A stretch of 24,017 nucleotides of DNA. Source: a virus. A model generated the notes under the pieces. The model was not told the origin of the DNA and made no database searches. It was given only the letters and a program-made list of their open reading frames with translations. Of the stretch, positions 3 to 24,017 are shown one piece after another. The stretch's first letter is position 1. Each line of letters begins with the position of its first letter. Location of the stretch: the IMG/VR virus record IMGVR_UViG_3300028589_000047, positions 1-24,017 of that record. One strand, written 5' to 3'. The translations under genes were made by a program, and so were the position numbers.

Positions 3-596
3 TCAGAGCTTTTCTGTAATATTTTCACTTCAGACACAGAGGAGTTTTTCCAAGAGGCCCACAACGACGCGTTAATGTCACACGCTCTAGCACGACAGGG
101 CGCTTGGCGTGTGGCGTTGATGTCTCTTCGAAGCCTAATAGAAAATACTGTGTTTGGGTTATATTACTGCGAGCACCCTGTAGAGCTACAACAATGGTTG
201 AGCGGCGAGCACAAGTTGGGCTTTAGCGAAACAACTTCTTATCTATTGCGCCACCCAAAGCTGAAAGACTTAGATGATGCAATTACAGGAATTGAAATCT
301 TAAAAGCAGAATATGCAACTCTATCCAAGGCAGTTCACGGCTCTGCAAAATCATTCCGCATGTCTCGTGACGGGATTGTTACCGGCTTAAATTTAAATTC
401 GCCTGCTGATCTTGGAGCATGGAGCACAAGGGAAAAATCTACCATTACCGGTATAAATTTATTGCTTATATGCTTTTTTGCTGACCACATAAAAGGGGCG
501 GCACTACCAAACCTTAGAAAGTCGATCAGCTTGGCAATCCCAGTAACCAAACACCATGCCATCAAATCTGCACTTCAGGTAACACTTAGACATTGA
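3..596 (+). CDS. Partial AT-rich accessory gene of unknown function (5' end outside window)
   Basis: I do not recognise a named family. The reading frame is open to the window edge: 24 sense codons precede the first in-frame ATG at 75, and that ATG has no Shine-Dalgarno sequence, so the gene most likely starts upstream. The visible part is about 197 residues. It looks soluble and largely helical, with a Leu/Ile-rich start (SLRSLIENTVFGLYY), a YATLSKAVHGS motif in the middle and a hydrophobic helix-like stretch (GINLLLICFFADHI). The YxxLSxxVHG pattern recalls helical HEPN/DUF5677-like proteins, but no Arg stands at the usual RxxxxH spacing, so I claim no nuclease. Base composition is clearly more AT-rich than the phage structural genes, which suggests cargo acquired by transfer. 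It converges on the methylase gene and sits where P2 carries old/tin, so a lysogenic-conversion or phage-exclusion role is a reasonable inference only. Confidence 0.7.
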   Translation, partial: SELFCNIFTSDTEEFFQEAHNDALMSHALARQGAWRVALMSLRSLIENTVFGLYYCEHPVELQQWLSGEHKLGFSETTSYLLRHPKLKDLDDAITGIEILKAEYATLSKAVHGSAKSFRMSRDGIVTGLNLNSPADLGAWSTREKSTITGINLLLICFFADHIKGAALPNLRKSISLAIPVTKHHAIKSALQVTLRH

Positions 597-688: not shown

Positions 689-1450
689 CTACCAGTTGAA
701 GAAAATCAGCTCATTGGCCGCTTTTCCACCGTTACCCCCCACCATGTGCCGGAACGGTACCTCCTTTAAACGAAGGCCCGAGAAAACTTCCCGAATCTGA
801 GGGTGATCATTGATCGAGATAACCATACGCCCCTTGATCGACGCCGCCAGCTCCGCCATCACCTGGTACTGATCGAAGTTGAAGCTACCAGGTGCATACC
901 CTGCTGTTTCCCAATAGGGCGGATCGAGATAGAAAAGGGTGTGCGGGCGATCGTACCGGCGGATGCATTCTTTCCAGTCGAGGTGCTCGATGGTGGTCCG
1001 GGCCAGCCGCAGGTGGGCTTCGCTCAACTTCTCCTCTATACGCAACAGATTCAGCCTGGGCGGCGATGTTGTCGCGGTTCCGAAGGTGCGGCCAGTGGGC
1101 TTGGCGCCGAAGCACTGCTGCTGCAGGTAGAAGAATCGCGCCGCCCGCTGAATATCGGTCAGCGTTTCCGGGATCTGCATGTTGGTCCATTCAAACATCT
1201 TGCGGCTGACCAGCGACCAGCGAAATTGCCGGACCAGCTCCTCCAGGTGATGTGCCACAACCCGGTACAGGTTGACAACCTCACCATCGAAGTCGTTGAT
1301 GACCTCGACATAGCTCTGCTCTTTCATGAAGAACAGCGCTGCGCCACCGCAGAACGGCTCGACATAGCATTCGTGCTCCGGGAACTCAGGCAGGATGTGT
1401 TTGGCCATGCGGCGCTTTCCGCCCATCCAAGGGAAAATTGGTGTAGACAT
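689..1450 (-). CDS. DNA adenine methylase, D12 class (N6-adenine-specific)
   Basis: The 253-aa protein has the alpha-class (Dam/D12) architecture. An N-terminal SAM-binding motif PWMGGKRRM is at residues 7-15, the VEPFCGGAALF motif at 30-40, an NDFDGEVVN acidic loop at 52-60, and the catalytic DPPY at 176-179. Such enzymes transfer a methyl group from S-adenosylmethionine to the N6 position of adenine. The target sequence cannot be read from the protein. On its own strand AAGGA (1457-1461) lies 6 nt before the ATG, which supports this start. It is co-directional with the terminase and portal genes but separated from the portal by 158 bp holding the candidate cos. No partner restriction gene is visible, so an orphan enzyme that protects phage DNA from restriction or alters regulation is the likely role. 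The long rightward reading frame across it is a shadow. Confidence 0.93.
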   Translation of the reverse strand: MSTPIFPWMGGKRRMAKHILPEFPEHECYVEPFCGGAALFFMKEQSYVEVINDFDGEVVNLYRVVAHHLEELVRQFRWSLVSRKMFEWTNMQIPETLTDIQRAARFFYLQQQCFGAKPTGRTFGTATTSPPRLNLLRIEEKLSEAHLRLARTTIEHLDWKECIRRYDRPHTLFYLDPPYWETAGYAPGSFNFDQYQVMAELAASIKGRMVISINDHPQIREVFSGLRLKEVPFRHMVGGNGGKAANELIFFNW

Positions 1451-15959: not shown

Positions 15960-17132
15960 ATGGCCGACGAATACCATCACGGCGTGCGAGTCCTCGAAAT
16001 CTCTGAGGGCACGCGCCCCATTCGCACCGTTTCCACCGCTGTCATCGGCCTGGTCTGTACTGCCGAAGATGCTGATGCAACCGTTTTCCCCCTGGACACT
16101 CCTGTCCTGATCACCAACATTCAAGCCGCCATCGGCAAAGCGGGCACCGAGGGCACGCTGGCTGCCAGCCTGCAGGCGATTGCCGACCAGACCAAACCGG
16201 TCACCGTCGTGGTCCGCGTCGCCACCGGCGCCGATGATGCCGCGACCACCAGCAACCTGATCGGCACCACCACCGCCGCCGGCAAGTACACCGGCATGAA
16301 AGCCCTGCTCGCGGCCAAGTCGCGCTTGCAGGTCACCCCACGCATTCTCGGTGTGCCAGGTCTCGACACCCTGCCCGTGGCCACTGCGCTAGTGGCTATC
16401 GCTCAGCAGCTGCGCGCCTTCGCTTATGTCAGCGCTTCGGATTGCCAGACCAAGGAAGAGGCAACCGCCTACCGCGAGAACTTCAGCGCCCGCGAAGTCA
16501 TGGTCATCTGGCCGGACTTCCAGAACTGGAACACCGTTACCAACGCCCCCGTCACCGCTCCGGCCGTGGCGCGAGCGCTGGGTCTGCGCGCCAAAATCGA
16601 CCAGGAAGTGGGCTGGCACAAAACCCTGTCCAACGTCGCCGTCAACGGCGTCACCGGTATCAGCGCCGACGTATTCTGGGATCTGCAGAACACGGCCACC
16701 GATGCCAACTACCTCAACGGCAACGAGGTCACCACTCTGATCAACGAGGGCGGCTATCGCTTCTGGGGCAGTCGCACCTGCAGCGACGATCCGTTGTTTG
16801 CCTTCGAGAACTACACCCGCACCGCCCAAGTGTTGGCCGATACCATCGCCAACGCGCAAATGTGGGCCATGGACAAACCCATGCACCCCTCGTTGGTGCG
16901 CGACATGATCGAAAGCATCAACGACAAGTTCCGCGAAATGATCGCCGGCGGCTACCTGATCGGCGGCAGCGTCTGGTACCCCGACGACATCAACGACGCG
17001 ACCACGCTCAAGGCCGGCAAGCTGTACATCGATTACGACTACACCCCTGTGCCGCCGCTGGAAGACCTCACCCTGCGTCAGCGCATCACCGACCGTTACC
17101 TGGTCGACTTTGCCAGCCGCCTCAACAGCTAA
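15960..17132 (+). CDS. FI: Contractile tail sheath protein (P2 gpFI family)
   Basis: The 390-aa sheath subunit begins MADEYHHGVRVLEISEGTRP, the typical start of the family. Conserved blocks are VIGLVCTAEDAD, PVLITNIQAAIGKAGTEGTL, and the C-terminal GSRTCSDDPLFAFENYTRTA and YTPVPPLEDLTLRQRITDRY. It forms the outer contractile cylinder whose shortening drives the tube into the cell. I start at 15960; a longer in-frame start at 15924 has no family support. The ribosome-binding site (CAGG) is modest. A 7-bp hairpin follows the stop codon. Confidence 0.96.
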   Translation: MADEYHHGVRVLEISEGTRPIRTVSTAVIGLVCTAEDADATVFPLDTPVLITNIQAAIGKAGTEGTLAASLQAIADQTKPVTVVVRVATGADDAATTSNLIGTTTAAGKYTGMKALLAAKSRLQVTPRILGVPGLDTLPVATALVAIAQQLRAFAYVSASDCQTKEEATAYRENFSAREVMVIWPDFQNWNTVTNAPVTAPAVARALGLRAKIDQEVGWHKTLSNVAVNGVTGISADVFWDLQNTATDANYLNGNEVTTLINEGGYRFWGSRTCSDDPLFAFENYTRTAQVLADTIANAQMWAMDKPMHPSLVRDMIESINDKFREMIAGGYLIGGSVWYPDDINDATTLKAGKLYIDYDYTPVPPLEDLTLRQRITDRYLVDFASRLNS

Positions 17133-17138
17133 CCCGGG

Positions 17139-17156
17139 CCTCCCCTCATGGGGAGG
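17139..17156 (+). other. Hairpin between sheath and tube genes
   Basis: CCTCCCC (17139-17145), loop TCAT, GGGGAGG (17150-17156): a perfect 7-bp GC-rich stem 7 nt after the sheath stop codon. No U-tract follows, so it is unlikely to be a full terminator. A 3'-end stabiliser or partial attenuator for the abundant sheath mRNA is more likely. Confidence 0.5.
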
Positions 17157-17189
17157 TAACCCTGCGCCAGCCGACCGGAGAACACCGCC

Positions 17190-17705
17190 ATGGCCCTGCC
17201 CCGCAAACTCAAGAACATGAACCTTTTCAACGACGGCAACAGCTACCTGGCCGTCGCCAAGTCCGTCACCTTGCCCTCCCTCGGCCGCAAGATGGAAGCC
17301 TATCGCGGCGGCGGCATGAACGGCCCGGTCAAGGCGGATCTGGGCCTCTCCGACGACGGCATTCAGCTGGAATGGAAAACCGGCGGCCTTGATCTGATCT
17401 CGCTGCGCCAGTTCGGCATGGTCAAGGCGGCCGGCGTGCTGCTGCGTTTTACCGGTGCTTTCCAGCAGGATGACACCGAAGAAATGAGCAGCGTGGAAGT
17501 GGTTGTGCGTGGCCGTCACGAGACCATCGAAATGGGCGATGCCCAGCCCGGTGAAGACACCGAGCACGGCATGACCACCACCTGCAGCTACTACAAACTG
17601 ATCGTCGACGGCGAAGAGATTATCGAAATCGATTTGCTCAATTTCGTTGAGAAGGTCGACGGCAAAGACATGCTCGAAGAGCAGCGCAAAGCCCTGGGTA
17701 TCTAA
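17190..17705 (+). CDS. FII: Major tail tube protein (P2 gpFII family)
   Basis: The 171-aa tube subunit has the family start MALPRKLKNMNLFNDGNSYL, followed by KSVTLPSLGRKMEAYRGGGM and the C-terminal YYKLIVDGEEIIEIDLLNFV. It polymerises into the inner tail tube whose length is set by the tape measure, and delivers the DNA. A CCGGAG ribosome-binding site lies before the ATG. Hairpins stand on both sides of the gene. Confidence 0.96.
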   Translation: MALPRKLKNMNLFNDGNSYLAVAKSVTLPSLGRKMEAYRGGGMNGPVKADLGLSDDGIQLEWKTGGLDLISLRQFGMVKAAGVLLRFTGAFQQDDTEEMSSVEVVVRGRHETIEMGDAQPGEDTEHGMTTTCSYYKLIVDGEEIIEIDLLNFVEKVDGKDMLEEQRKALGI

Positions 17706-17713
17706 CTCGAATG

Positions 17714-17729
17714 GCCCTCGATTGAGGGC
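17714..17729 (+). other. Hairpin between tube and E genes
   Basis: GCCCTC (17714-17719), loop GATT, GAGGGC (17724-17729): a perfect 6-bp stem 9 nt after the tube stop codon and 24 nt before E. No U-tract follows. It mirrors the hairpin after the sheath gene, and together they bracket the tube cistron. Confidence 0.5.
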
Positions 17730-17753
17730 TTACCCCACCTCCTGGAGAAAACC

Positions 17754-18101
17754 ATGTCCACACCTGAAACCGCAAAATCCACTGTGACCGCGCCTGAAGA
17801 GAACAAGCACGACGAAAACACCGTTGAGCTCGACACCCCCATCCAGCGCGGCAATCAACTCATCAGCACCATCACTCTGCGCAAACCTTGCGCGGGTGAG
17901 CTGCGTGGCATCCACCTGGCCGAGCTGCTGAACCTCGATGTAGCCAGCCTGATCAAGGTCATCCCGCGCATCAGCTCGCCTGGCATCACCGCCCCTGAAG
18001 CTGCCGGCATGGACCCAGCCGACCTGCTGGCCATCGGCGGCAAGGTCGTCGGTTTTTTGCTGCAGAAGCAGGCGAAGACGGATGCATCCCTCGTTGCGTA
18101 G
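17754..18101 (+). CDS. E: Tail assembly chaperone E (P2 gpE family)
   Basis: The 115-aa protein has an acidic, disordered start and the conserved core ELDTPIQRGNQLISTITLRK followed by PCAGELRGIHLAELLNLDV and SLIKVIPRISSPGI. It corresponds to P2 gpE, which with its frameshifted product E+E' coats the tape measure during tail assembly. GGAG lies 7 nt before the ATG. Near its 3' end the T6G heptamer (18053-18059) sits in register for a -1 shift into E'. Confidence 0.94.
   Translation: MSTPETAKSTVTAPEENKHDENTVELDTPIQRGNQLISTITLRKPCAGELRGIHLAELLNLDVASLIKVIPRISSPGITAPEAAGMDPADLLAIGGKVVGFLLQKQAKTDASLVA
18053..18059 (+). promoter_or_regulatory. Programmed -1 ribosomal frameshift site (T TTT TTG) for E+E'
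   Basis: The heptamer TTTTTTG is read in the zero frame of E as GGT-TTT-TTG, which is the X-XXY-YYZ register. A one-base slip continues at GCT (18059) and runs 17 codons without a stop, in frame with the E' ATG at 18110, to the TGA at 18227-18229. The same T6G sequence drives E/E' frameshifting in P2. The predicted fusion is 102 residues of E plus 56, 158 aa in total. A palindrome GGATGCATCC lies 20 nt downstream, but I see no strong pseudoknot. Confidence 0.88.
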
Positions 18102-18109
18102 AGGACGCC

Positions 18110-18229
18110 ATGGCCGATCTGGCCGTGGTCTTTCACTGGGCGCCAGCCGACATGGATCGGCTGGGCCTGCAGGAACTGATGGACTGGCGCGAGAGGGCGC
18201 GGGTTAGGAGTAGCGCCGATGGCCAATGA
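18110..18229 (+). CDS. E': Tail protein E' (P2 GpE' family, 39 aa)
   Basis: This short frame encodes a 39-aa protein starting MADLAVVFHWAPADMDRLGL and containing ELMDWRERA, which fits the small P2 GpE'-type domain. It is normally made as the C-terminal part of E+E' through the T6G frameshift. GAGGA (18101-18105) also lies just before its own ATG, so separate initiation is possible. The last 11 nt overlap the tape measure start. The fusion should bridge E to the tape measure protein during tube assembly. Confidence 0.9.
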   Translation: MADLAVVFHWAPADMDRLGLQELMDWRERARVRSSADGQ

Positions 18230-21200
18230 TCTACGACTTCAGGTATTGCTCAATGCCATCGACAAGGCCTCCGCACCGTTGCGGCAAATCAGCCAGGGCA
18301 GTCTCGAGACGGCCCGGGCGCTGAAGAGCGCCCGTGACCGCCTCAAGGAACTCAACACCCAACAGAAGGACGTCAGCGCCTGGCGCGAGCTGCAAGCCAC
18401 CAACCGTGAGACAGCGGCAACGCTGGAGGCCAGCAACGCCAAGCTGGGCGAACTCAGCCGCGCCACCGCCAAAGTGCGTCAGCAGCTGGCCCCCACCCAG
18501 GCGCTGGTCGAACAATCACGGCAAAAATTCGATGCACTCAAGGACACCCAGGGCGAGCTGAAGCGCGAACTCACCAGCTCACGCGATGCCCTTGGGTTGG
18601 TCCGTGATGAGTACGGCAAAGCACGAACCCAGATTGCAGCCCTCAATGCGGTGACCAGTCAGGGCAATTCGCTTACTGACAAACAGCGCATTGAATATGA
18701 GCAACTGACCACGGCTCAGCGAGCCAGAAAGGTTGAGCTCGACCAACTGGCAGCCAAAGAAAAAACCCTTTCCGAACGCTACACCACCGGCAATGCGCAG
18801 CTACGTTCCGCCCGTGCAGGGCATGCCAGTCTGCGCGAAGAGCTGCGCCGGCTGGAGCAACCGCACAAGGCCCAGCTTGCCCTGTTACGTCAGCAGACCG
18901 GCGAATCCAAACGGTTGGGCGAACAGTACGGACAGCAGAAAGCCAAGCTGGCCAGCCTCGCCGCACAGCTCAAAGAAGCGGGGATCAACACCAACACTCT
19001 TGGCGCGCACGAGCTCAAACTCAAGAGCCAAATTGACGCCGCCAACACCAGCATCGATACCCAAAGCAAGCGCATGGCTGCCCTGAATGCGCAGCAGGCC
19101 CGAGCAGCGAAACTGCGCGCGAACTTCGGCAGAAGTCGAGAGATGGTGGGAGTTACGGCAAGTGCGGGCGCCAGCTCTGTCGCCACCGGTGCGACCGCTG
19201 GGCTGCCGATTCTGGCAATGGTGAAGAATTATTCGAGCTTCGAGGACGCCATGGCCGGCGTCGCCAAGCAGGTCGAGGGCGCCCGGGACGACAACGGCAA
19301 ACTCACCCAGACCTATTACGACATGGGGGCAGCTATCAAGAAGATGGCGGAAAGCATTCCCATGGCAACCACAGACATCGCGGCGCTCGTGGAGGGCGGC
19401 GCGCGGATGGGCGTCCAGGGCAAGGACAACTTGCTCGAGTTCGCCCGCGTTGCGGCCACAGCGGCCACCGCTTTTGAACTGCCGGCCGATCAGATCGGGG
19501 AGAACCTGGCCAGAATCGCGGACCTATACAAATTGCCGATCAAAGACATCAGCCAGCTCGGCGATGCGATCAATTACCTCGATGACAATGCCAAGTCCAA
19601 GGGCGCAGACATTATCGACGTGATGCAGCGCACCGCGGGCATCACGGCCTCAGTGGGCATGTCGTTCAAGGATGCGGCGGCGTTGGGCTCCACCTTCTTG
19701 ACCCTGGGTGCTTCGGCGGAAGTCGCGGGCACGGCCACCAACGCCATGATCCGTGAACTGGCGATTGCAACGAAGCAGCCGAAGCGGTTCCAACAAGGAC
19801 TGGCGGCGGTTGGGTTGGAAGCGAAAGCTGTGCAGGATGGCATGGCCAAGGACGCCACCGGCACCATCCAGAAGGTACTGGAAGCGGTGAGCAAGTTACC
19901 CAAGGCTGAACAGCTTGGCGTTATGACTGAGCTATTCGGCAAGGAATACGGCGACGACGCCGCAAAGCTCACCGCCAACATCGGCGAGTACCGGCGCCAG
20001 CTCGAACTGGTGAACAGCACCAAGGGTGCCGGATCGATGCAAAAAGAAGGTGACATCAAAGGACAGCAGCTGTCAGCCCGCTGGCAAATGTCGCAAAACC
20101 GAATGTTTAACCTCAGCAGCGCCATGGGCGAAACGCTGCGACCAACCCTCATTGAGCTGGTCGACGGCTTTAACCGCATCATCGAGCGGGTGAACACCTG
20201 GGCAACTGAAAACCCTATGCTCGTCGCGAGCCTGCTGAAAGTCGCGGCAGGGATTGCAGCCCTGTCTGCTGGCTTCGGTGTCGTCGCACTCGGTATTGCC
20301 GGCGTGCTTGGCCCTTTCCTCGCTGTGCGTTTCGCGCTGTCCATGATGGGGCTGAAAATCCCCACGCTGCTGGGCTTGCTGAGAGTGCTGGCCGTAGCCT
20401 TCAGCGGTGGACTGGTAACTGCTATTCGCGCCGTCAGCATCGCCCTGTGGGGGCTGGCCGCCAACCCTGTGGCGCTGGCGATCGCTGCCATCGTGGCGGT
20501 ACTCGCCGGCGCCGGTTACCTCATCTACCAGAACTGGGACCAGGTGAAGCTGTACTTCGCCAATGCATGGACCGAGATCAAGGCCGGCTTCAGCGGCGGC
20601 ATCGGTGGCATTCTCACCACTCTGGCCAACTTCAGTCCGATTGGACTGATCTACCAAGCCTTTGCTGGTGTGCTGAGCTATCTGGGCGTGGATCTGCCGA
20701 CGCGCTTCACCGAGTTCGGCAACATGATCGTCAACGGCCTGGTCAACGGGCTCATGGCCGGTGCCGGGCAGATCAAGGACGCCATCACCTCGATCGGTGG
20801 CTCGACCATCGATTGGTTCAAAGAAAAACTCGGCATCCACAGCCCATCGCGGGTTTTTGCCGAACTGGGCGGCTTTACCATGGCCGGCCTGACACAGGGG
20901 CTGCAATCCGGTGAACAAGGCCCGCTGGATGCCGTCGCGCAAATCAGCAAGCAGCTCACCAGCGCGGGCTCGTTCGTGATGAATGCGATCTCCGGCCCAT
21001 CCTCGACGGGGGAGCCACGCACCCCAGCCGAGGCTGCCGGTGTGGCTCAAACGCTCAAGGCGGCGCAATCGACCATGCCCCCGACTGGTCCAGATGAGAG
21101 TGGCACAGGTGTTCTGGCGACGTTAGCCACTCTCGGCAAACAGATCACGGCTGCTGGCGCCATGGCATTGGGCGGCATGGCAGCGCCCGTCATGGCCATG

Positions 21201-21424: not shown

Positions 21425-21865
21425 ATGATGCTTGCCCTCGGCATGTTCGTTTTTAGCCTGCACACGGCTGCGTATCAGGAGATGCAACGCCAAACGGATT
21501 GGCGCCACCCCGGCAGTAGACGAATCGGTATCAACCCGGCCCGCCAGTTTCTGGGCCGGGGGGAGGATGCCATCACCCTCCCCGGCATCATCCTTCCGGA
21601 GTTGGCCGGTATTGTCTTGAGCCTGGACGTGCTACGCCAGATGGCTGACACCGGCAAGGCCTGGCCCATGGTCGAAGGTACCGGCCGATTGTGCGGACTC
21701 TGGGTGATCGACAACCTGACGGAAACCAGGACCATCTTCTTTTCCAACGGCGCCGCCCGGCGGATCGAATTCAACTTGAGCCTGAAACGCGTCGACGATG
21801 GTCGTATGGATCTGCTCGGAGCGAGCACCGGCGCCGGCTTGAACATTGTGAGGGGGCTCCTGTGA
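21425..21865 (+). CDS. U: Tail protein U (P2 gpU family)
   Basis: The 146-aa tail terminator-type protein begins MMLALGMFVFSLHTAAYQEM. It then has QRQTDWRHPGSRRIG, RGEDAITLPGIILPELAG, GKAWPMVEGTGRLCGLWVID and FFSNGAARRIEFNLSLKRVD, all conserved in gpU. AGGAG within the tape measure 3' end supports the start; ATG codons at 21425 and 21428 are equally possible. Its stop overlaps the GTG start of D. Confidence 0.95.
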   Translation: MMLALGMFVFSLHTAAYQEMQRQTDWRHPGSRRIGINPARQFLGRGEDAITLPGIILPELAGIVLSLDVLRQMADTGKAWPMVEGTGRLCGLWVIDNLTETRTIFFSNGAARRIEFNLSLKRVDDGRMDLLGASTGAGLNIVRGLL

Positions 21866-23118
21866 TCGATGCCGCGATTGCCCGTGTGACGGGCTACGTG
21901 AAAAACACCCTTGAACAGGCTCGTCGCGATGCCACCTATCCGGTACCGGCGTTTCGCTTGACCGTCGATGGCAACGACCTCGCACAGTTGATCAGTCCGC
22001 GGCTGATGAGCCTAGAGCTGACCGACAATCGCGGCATCGAGGCCGACCAGCTCAGCATTACGCTCAGCGACCACGATGGCCTGCTGGTCATTCCACCCAA
22101 AGGCGCGATCTTGCGGCTGTGGCTGGGCTGGAGTGATACCGGCCTGGTCGACAAAGGCACCTACACCGTCGACGAAACCGAGCACAGCGGCGCACCCGAC
22201 GTGCTCAGCATTCGCGCGCGATCGGCAGACCTGCGCAAGGGGCTCAAGACCAAACGCGAGCGCAGCTGGAGCAACACCACCCTGGGTGAAGTACTTGGAG
22301 CCATCGCCAGTGGCAATGGCCTCAAGGCCACGATTGCCGAAGCCCTGGGCGGCCTGCCCATCCTGCAGCTCGACCAGGCCAATGAATCGGATGCCAACCT
22401 GATCAGTCGACTGGGCGAAGAGTTCGATGCCGTGGCAACAGTCAAAGCTGGCTGCCTGCTGTGCATGCCGGCCGGCGGTGGCAAGACGGCCAGCGGCCTG
22501 GCACTGCCCCATATCACTCTGACCCGCGTCGATGGCGACCAGCACCGATACCTGCAAGCCGATCGCGACAGCTACGACGGTGTGCGGGCCTATTACTACG
22601 ACGTGAACAGTGCCAAGAAACAGGAAGCCATTGCCGGCGGCGGTGAAAACCTCAAGGACCTGCGCCATACCTACAGCGACCGGCAGTCGGCCCTGCGGGC
22701 TGCCCGGGCCGAGTTCAATCGTCTGCAACGTGGCAGCGCCACCCTGAGCTACACCCTTGCACGGGGCCGACCGGATCTGATTCCAGAGTTGACCTACACG
22801 CTCCAGGGCGTGAAGGCCGAGATTGATGAGATCATCTGGTATGGCGGCAACATCCAGCACAGCCTCAGCGCCGACAATGGCTACACCATGAGCCTGGATC
22901 TGGAAAGCAAACTGCCGGAGGACTCGGTGGAGGACTTGGCCGAGGAAAACAATGGCGAGTACACCGGGATCATCGCGTATTACCGCGACATACAAACAGG
23001 AAAAGAAAAATCCGTCTCGGCGGGAGATCAAACAAAGCCGAGACGGTTGACATGGCTATATGCAAGTGAAAGAACGGCTAAGAGGGCAGTAAATCGCGAG
23101 CTAAAAAAAATACAATAA
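21862..23118 (+). CDS. D: Tail hub protein D (P2 gpD family, late control D)
   Basis: The 418-aa tail hub protein relates to T4 gp27 and VgrG. It connects tube and spike. It starts at GTG (21862), overlapping the U stop as GTGA, with AGGGGG upstream; the frame extends further 5' but only as a shadow of U. Conserved parts are YPVPAFRLTVDGNDL, DQLSITLSDHDGLL, LDQANESDANLISRLGEEFD and the C-terminal tail GIIAYYRDIQTGKEKSVSAG then RRLTWLYASERTAKRAV. The last 130 nt turn AT-rich and include a perfect 10-bp inverted repeat. Confidence 0.95.
   Translation: MIDAAIARVTGYVKNTLEQARRDATYPVPAFRLTVDGNDLAQLISPRLMSLELTDNRGIEADQLSITLSDHDGLLVIPPKGAILRLWLGWSDTGLVDKGTYTVDETEHSGAPDVLSIRARSADLRKGLKTKRERSWSNTTLGEVLGAIASGNGLKATIAEALGGLPILQLDQANESDANLISRLGEEFDAVATVKAGCLLCMPAGGGKTASGLALPHITLTRVDGDQHRYLQADRDSYDGVRAYYYDVNSAKKQEAIAGGGENLKDLRHTYSDRQSALRAARAEFNRLQRGSATLSYTLARGRPDLIPELTYTLQGVKAEIDEIIWYGGNIQHSLSADNGYTMSLDLESKLPEDSVEDLAEENNGEYTGIIAYYRDIQTGKEKSVSAGDQTKPRRLTWLYASERTAKRAVNRELKKIQ
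23012..23046. repeat. Perfect 10-bp inverted repeat in the 3' end of gene D
   Basis: CCGTCTCGGC (23012-23021) and GCCGAGACGG (23037-23046) are exact reverse complements with a 15-nt spacer. It lies in coding sequence at the point where composition shifts from GC-rich phage structural DNA to AT-rich cargo DNA. TTGACA follows immediately (23047-23052), but with no -10 partner. Confidence 0.7.
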
Positions 23119-23119
23119 T

Positions 23120-23977
23120 CTAACGCTTTATTACACCTTCTTGGTAAGCGCGCCCAAGATATGAAAGCTTCTGCTTTTCGGCAGATGACTTCATCGAGGC
23201 TGAGTAACCAGCTTTAATTTTTACCATAGAAATCAATGGCCCAGCTATCAGCCCAAAATGTCCGGTATACATACTTTGAAAGGCGTCAATAACTGCCCCA
23301 GCACTCGCAGCTGCAACCAAAGCACCTCCGTCCAAATTAAAGCTAACAGACAGATCATAATTCGAAGTTAGTGCCCACTTCTCCTTAGTAACCACGCTAA
23401 CATCAGAAATAGACTTCCTCAAACCAGCCAAAGCTTTAGTTTTTGACAGGTTTTGATCTGGAGATTTCAGAATATCTAAGTAGAGATCATCAACCGCATT
23501 ATGAAGAGCATTGAGCTCATCCTTTCTTCTAAGTTTAAAATCAAGTAGATCCGCTACACTTACATCTCCCGAAGGCACGGGGAGTGAGTTCACCAACTCA
23601 AACTTCAAGCTGCGCTTCTCATCAGAATAAGCTTCCGGAAGTACTAACCTATCGCCTATTTGATGGATAACCCAGTCAACATCACTCTCATTACTCATGC
23701 GCTCATTGGCAATTTTTGCTTGTAAGTCCAGATAGAGCGCAGGCATCTGCGATGAGTGCCCCGAGAAGATTCCGGCAGGTCGCTCAACCACTCCACAATC
23801 GATCAACTCATCTTCATTATCCAAAACGACATGAACAATGTTGTTTGTAGGAAGTACGACCCTATCCCAATACATCGCGTAATATCGAACTTCCTCCGCA
23901 CTGATGCGACGTTCAATTGAAAAACCATCTTTCAGAGCCTTAACAATTTGAGCACTGGCAATTACACCACGTTCCAT
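23120..23977 (-). CDS. AT-rich accessory protein of unknown function (possibly DUF6236-like)
   Basis: The 285-aa protein has no function I can assign. The N-terminal MERGVIAS, the AEEVRYYAMYWDRVVLPTNN segment and the middle VADLLDFKLRRKDELNALHN resemble, from memory, proteins labelled DUF6236; this is tentative. A small-residue-rich hydrophobic stretch lies at about 216-253 (ALVAAASAGAVIDAF, FGLIAGPLISMV) and could be membrane-active, before a basic tail. On its strand GAGGTAG stands close before the ATG, so the start is well supported. It is transcribed against the phage late genes and ends 1 bp from the D stop. It is clearly AT-richer than its neighbours. This is the pattern of a lysogenic-conversion cargo gene with its own promoter, which would lie beyond the window edge. 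Confidence 0.85.
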   Translation of the reverse strand: MERGVIASAQIVKALKDGFSIERRISAEEVRYYAMYWDRVVLPTNNIVHVVLDNEDELIDCGVVERPAGIFSGHSSQMPALYLDLQAKIANERMSNESDVDWVIHQIGDRLVLPEAYSDEKRSLKFELVNSLPVPSGDVSVADLLDFKLRRKDELNALHNAVDDLYLDILKSPDQNLSKTKALAGLRKSISDVSVVTKEKWALTSNYDLSVSFNLDGGALVAAASAGAVIDAFQSMYTGHFGLIAGPLISMVKIKAGYSASMKSSAEKQKLSYLGRAYQEGVIKR

Positions 23978-24017
23978 ACAACTACCTCGCAGATTGATTA
24001 ATTACTCACTACCTTCC

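Follow-up and report, generated by a model that had tools for sequence, protein, structure and literature searches.

Background

Single-gene abortive-infection or exclusion proteins of prophages are solitary and accessory, and they lie beside other defence genes. The gene described here resembles them in being solitary, accessory, prophage-borne and placed beside defence genes, and it differs in that its product has no PADLOC match. In the P2-like phages of E. coli an accessory hotspot lies between gpA and gpQ; it spans about 1-5 kb between two conserved flanking genes, shows high turnover and carries many anti-phage systems (PMC9122126).

The present locus was found in the window, that is the whole stretch of DNA analysed (24,017 nucleotides, positions 1 to 24,017 of IMG/VR record IMGVR_UViG_3300028589_000047). 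The interval between late gene D and the repressor resembles the gpA-gpQ hotspot (PMC9122126) in its small size (414-3257 bp), high turnover and conserved flanks. It may also be similar in defence content, with PADLOC matches in 8 of 20 hand-picked proteins and no control region for comparison. It differs from the gpA-gpQ site in position, being the D-repressor interval; a counterpart of gpA-gpQ would be expected at the opposite end, at the portal gene (1609-2697), with its own cargo. That left end (3-596 (+) and 689-1450 (-)) holds, by the portal gene, a D12 adenine methylase and a partial gene that is AT-rich and matches DUF5677 below threshold. Literature searches, with most subscription papers and all preprints outside their scope, returned no paper on a D-repressor hotspot and none containing the term DUF6236, both absences being weak.

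Results and Discussion

The cargo gene and its setting

The features of the locus are as follows.

23120..23977, (-): DUF6236 cargo gene, 285 aa; open frame matching PF19749 (E 1.1e-40) and phrog_23128 over its full length (E 3.1e-55)
23985..23988, (-): GAGG ribosome-binding site, 7 nt ahead of the cargo ATG, read directly
21862..23118, (+): late gene D (tail/baseplate hub), left border of the exchange slot, placed by its tblastn matches to D genes annotated in Pseudomonas phages
22962..23118, (+): 3' tail of D, apparently replaced along with the cargo; identity to L005 and L006 is 64-74% in the last ~150 bases and GC falls here
23219..23335, (-): small-residue-rich hydrophobic C-terminal segment, codons 215-253; position conserved in 48/49 members, hydropathy not above shuffles, low model confidence

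The cargo gene is a single ORF with an ATG start, and it is a real gene. The frame is beyond chance because none of 2000 first-order Markov sequences of the region reached 285 codons, the longest frame being 216. The gene is convergent with D, whose stop ends at 23118, and the gap between the two is 1 bp. The GC content is 0.44 for the cargo gene against 0.60 for D, and at third positions 0.39 against 0.72; the fall in GC begins within the 3' end of D (~22962..23118). These results are in accordance with a preliminary description made from the letters alone, which had reported a 285-aa protein encoded antisense to the late genes with 1 bp between it and the D stop, a good ribosome-binding site and a distinct composition; coordinates and length agree. 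The carrier is a P2-like phage whose host is probably Pseudomonas.

The transcription signals were also analysed. A scan of 22700-24017 yielded no sigma-70-like promoter, and the terminator-like sites there were at chance level. The record stops 40 bases ahead of the ATG, which leaves most of the promoter region of the window copy out of view. Just upstream of the DUF6236 gene, toward the repressor side, L176 and L116 have a GC-rich hairpin; at L176:4690-5060 and L116:7800-8000 it is accompanied by a small conserved ORF of ~50 codons, likewise on the repressor side of the cargo gene. Promoter scans at these two loci were near chance. The predicted hairpin fits a separately transcribed cargo gene.

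The D-repressor interval as an exchange slot

A search of viral contigs with the D protein gave 568 relatives, of which the best 80 were kept. The far flank of the slot in the relatives is the repressor with its conserved neighbours. Among these best 80, 59 had a repressor anchor, and their slot length ranged from 414 to 3257 bp with a median of 1247; 12 slots were short (<600), 20 middle and 27 long (>=1500). The other 21 loci were anchored by another gene (12) or ran off the contig (9). The slot ORFs across the 80 loci, taken from a mechanical caller and so including spurious frames, fell into 52 clusters, many of them unrelated. The D-repressor interval is an exchange slot with turnover.

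DUF6236 was found in the slot of only one of the 80 best relatives (L038, the same contig as L116), where it is 49% identical and has the same place and orientation. Among 398 Pseudomonas genomes, DUF6236 occurs anywhere in 5 and D in 57, and in two of these five (G001 and G313, the latter with the copy L176) the gene lies within the D-repressor slot. The preliminary description had proposed variation at this locus among relatives as a check, and the locus is indeed variable; strict linkage of the cargo gene to the late genes, which would have spoken against it, is excluded, the gene being rare beside D in the relatives. The moron trait of a cargo gene absent from close relatives and differing in composition was seen, and the gene is almost certainly accessory cargo of a P2-like prophage. 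In L038, L093 and L176, DUF6236 stands alone between D and the repressor-side genes and shares the orientation of the repressor; in the window it is antisense to the late genes.

Other contents of the interval were compared. In annotated P. aeruginosa phages it is occupied by a LuxR-type regulator (Dobby), a helix-turn-helix gene (Sirocco), or a cytosine methylase with a ParB-like gene (D14A). In one relative (L062:7352-10283) the D slot carries a DruM2-like cytosine methylase together with a gene that matches PD-Lambda-5_A in part. Twenty hand-picked slot representatives were scanned with PADLOC, with no control region alongside, and 8 of them matched at E <= 1e-5, the match of L022 being perhaps a coiled coil only; the matching clusters, L022 excluded, span 20 of the 80 loci. 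With locus numbers given as cluster sizes, the matches include KAP NTPases (PDC-S20, 11 loci; PDC-S49, 2 loci), FRG proteins (PDC-S15, 4 loci), caspase-like proteins (2 loci) and 2TM_IV proteins (2 loci), and a DNA cytosine methylase and a partial PD-Lambda-5_A-like protein were also present. The Pfam families NA37, DUF4747 and DUF6161 occurred among the scanned proteins. The remaining 12 of the 20 hand-picked proteins gave no PADLOC match at E <= 1e-5, and the slot therefore holds other cargo too.

Origin of the cargo and of the D tail

The D proteins of L005, L006 and L007 are 94-95% identical to that of the window, and the DNA of L006 is 93.9% identical across window 16248-21160. Their slots measure 439, 429 and 504 bp respectively, with no ORF of at least 80 codons in L005 or L006 and one of 105 codons in L007. 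L010, with a D protein 94% identical, carries a caspase-like gene as slot cargo instead. When D was compared with that of L005 in 100-base bins, eleven bins showed 90-98% identity and the last two 74% and 64%; a comparable drop at the end of D was observed against L006, L007, L008 and L010. The simplest reading is that the D tail and the cargo were swapped as one block, because identity of ~95% falls to 64-74% in the last ~150 bases of D.

A tree of 63 rows was built from 72 loci less 20 near copies or fragments plus 11 added. The slot labels were assigned by hand, those of L124 and L145 being uncertain, and the slot copies (window, L116, L093 and L173) formed one clade with support 97/84 and L117 as sister. 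Because the four slot copies share one clade, the DUF6236 gene probably entered the D-repressor slot once and then moved among related phages. Among these four the DUF6236 protein is 43-62% identical against 84-98% for D, that is, the slot copies of DUF6236 diverge faster than D. All four cargo copies have a third-position GC of 0.37-0.39, compared with 0.72-0.79 in D.

Protein family and selection

The two profile searches proposed in the preliminary description gave opposite outcomes. The match to Pfam DUF6236 was confirmed at 140.2 bits against a curated cut-off of 26.2, with protein residues 32-279 aligned on profile positions 75-322 of 324, and phrog_23128 was matched nearly in full (1-287 of 288); neither library assigns a function. 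Among defence profiles, no family of PADLOC-DB 2023 matched the cargo protein at E <= 1. The NCBIfam search with the cargo protein gave no match. A PDB sequence search with the cargo protein alone likewise found no match, and with the family profile it gave weak matches only (E >= 0.012). Because a scan of viral contigs with the single cargo protein returned no matches, a ten-protein alignment was used as query, and it revealed 72 loci, 23 of them in genome contigs and the other 49 in viral contigs.

Hand-chosen members were aligned (A2, 49 rows; A3, 38 rows). DUF6236 was matched by all 49 aligned members (E <= 0.1; best 1.6e-58). Residues D38, P133, P135 and F147 are invariant in 49/49, and K148, R151, E154 and L155 are kept in 48/49. 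A PD-(D/E)XK reading of D38 with D146-F147-K148, taken from this conservation, was dropped because K148 falls in the predicted helix 141-150, off any strand.

The dN/dS ratio was 0.03-0.11 in the seven computable family pairs, the dS of the window copy being saturated; as judged from these substitution ratios, purifying selection acts within the family. Two damaged copies were seen, one in an E. coli prophage interrupted by an IS5 element (L166:8001-10063) and one in Halomonas shortened by a stop (L105). Such copies are what a decaying, functionless passenger would leave. For the cargo gene this explanation is extremely unlikely, as the window frame is intact and both the low dN/dS of the family pairs and the four invariant residues stand against it.

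Predicted structure

The model of the window protein (mean pLDDT 81, pTM 0.81) predicted an alpha/beta domain at 1-135 and helices at 141-200, followed by low-confidence strands at ~217-247. The model of L127, an E. coli-type relative, is much alike over the first 200 residues, and its residues 204-269 are below pLDDT 50. The two models support the soluble N-terminal part that had been suggested earlier. The hydrophobic segment placed there at about 216-253 stood in position and not in strength. In 48/49 members the hydropathy peak begins 41-71 residues from the C-terminus, but the best 19-residue Kyte-Doolittle mean of the window protein, 1.42, was equalled by 1376 of 2000 shuffles. A mean of 1.6 was reached by 9/49 family members. 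On statistical grounds a transmembrane helix was rejected, since shuffles attain the same hydropathy. A membrane-acting mechanism of the cargo protein is considered rather unlikely, and hydropathy and models together neither support nor exclude a membrane-active part.

Foldseek gave no match below E 0.001 in PDB for either model or in BFVD for the window model. VIA-align returned Rossmann-like matches at background level over residues 1-212 of the window model and 1-177 of L127, the C-terminal part being barely covered. Any likeness to the CARF-domain effectors Csm6, Cad1 and Can2 would lie in this Rossmann-like N-terminal part; CARF chains turn up repeatedly when the two divergent DUF6236 models are matched, weakly, to known folds. 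The best CARF values for the window model were a Foldseek E of 0.035 and a VIA Z of up to 5.8 (96 residues, 3.7 A), and for L127 the VIA Z was 4.5 or less. However, Z values of 3.9 to 5.8 are within the background of the tool, other nucleotide-binding folds score equally, and no CRISPR context was noticed.

DUF6236 in other hosts and the alternatives

The family occurs at several sites. In enterobacterial lambdoid prophages, DUF6236 lies between the lysis and HNH/terminase genes, co-directional and inside the late region; one annotated E. coli prophage has it at this lysis/terminase site and a KAP NTPase gene elsewhere. In Klebsiella phage Mulock it is placed between the tail fibre genes and the integrase, and in two Vibrio phages it comes last, at the phage end past the late region. 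Twelve records of a plasmid collection carry it. A relative is present in 32 of 5426 E. coli genomes, although the DNA of the window itself, used as query, matched none in E. coli. Pseudoalteromonas genome G002 has three DUF6236 genes at separate places (L168, L171 and L172). In Pseudomonas genome G311 (L175 / L178) a distant DUF6236 and some D-like fragments share one strand and lie ~1.2 kb apart, and this locus is perhaps a decayed P2-like remnant.

The co-directional lambdoid copies lie within the late region, and expression in lytic growth is therefore possible. They favour a counter-defence or phage-fitness gene of lytic growth, which would shield the phage from host or satellite defences, and presence on plasmids would fit as well. 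The window copy is antisense to the late genes, however, and those of L038, L093 and L176 follow the repressor; a protein of 285 aa in two domains is also large against the usual small inhibitors. This role is considered unlikely for the cargo gene.

Ten hand-chosen neighbour genes were searched against PADLOC (nine also against Pfam), with no control region, and 6 of the 10 matched at E <= 1e-8, one was weak (E 2e-4) and three had no match. The matching neighbours comprise a PD-T4-5/AbiD-like HEPN protein, a TIR-TPR protein, PDC-S26 with PD-(D/E)XK, a type IIG MmeI-like enzyme, a C5 methylase and a D12 methylase. The gene of an MmeI-type IIG enzyme lies 55 bp upstream of one DUF6236 copy, and a HEPN/Abi-like gene 20 bp upstream of DUF6236 on an Acinetobacter plasmid and a related contig. 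The latter arrangement would suit a two-gene system in which DUF6236 is paired with a HEPN or other partner, acting for example as antitoxin or accessory subunit. The idea of a HEPN partner throughout the family was dropped because it is limited to the Acinetobacter plasmid lineage; no partner gene recurs across the 72 DUF6236 loci outside close copies, and the gene is alone beside D in L038, L093 and L176. A two-gene system is considered highly improbable.

On Acinetobacter plasmids DUF6236 also occurs near resistance or transporter genes. Together with the many slot proteins lacking defence matches, this is consistent with lysogenic-conversion cargo for a host fitness unrelated to phages, such as a stress or surface function. 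Against it, defence-type neighbours recur in unrelated hosts, and the family, often carried by mobile elements, is rare (5/398 Pseudomonas genomes). Such a function is considered rather unlikely.

Proposed role

The cargo product probably has an anti-phage role, protecting the lysogen from other phages, a reading whose probability we place somewhat above even; it is suggested because DUF6236 is found in the company of anti-phage genes across many bacteria and prophages. The idea of a defence gene in the preliminary description is supported by the defence-type neighbourhood only and not by any known defence profile.

For this anti-phage role, the following course may be proposed. The cargo gene occupies the exchange slot of a P2-like prophage, with late gene D on one side and the lysogeny repressor on the other. 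Its expression from the prophage, antisense to the late genes, is probable, and so is protection of the lysogen by its product against other phages; both the lysogen expression and the anti-phage action are what we infer. The subsequent steps are the least certain. The alpha/beta domain (1-135) and the helices (141-200) might sense a phage-made or phage-induced signal, upon which the flexible Gly/Ala-rich C-terminal part (~204-262) might change shape so as to oligomerise or enter the membrane, and the infected cell, or the infection, might be stopped.

Conclusion

The fullest form of the proposal is very unlikely to hold as a whole: DUF6236 would be a new single-gene anti-phage family with a CARF-like nucleotide-sensing domain and a C-terminal membrane-acting segment, carried at several prophage cargo sites, and the D-repressor interval would be a second, undescribed P2-like defence hotspot. 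The analysis flags the uncharacterised DUF6236 as a candidate anti-phage family, for which the relatives in E. coli genomes make a test set ready. The exchange point is visible inside D itself, and the D-repressor interval of Pseudomonas P2-like prophages would be a rich place to seek new defence genes, apart from gpA-gpQ.
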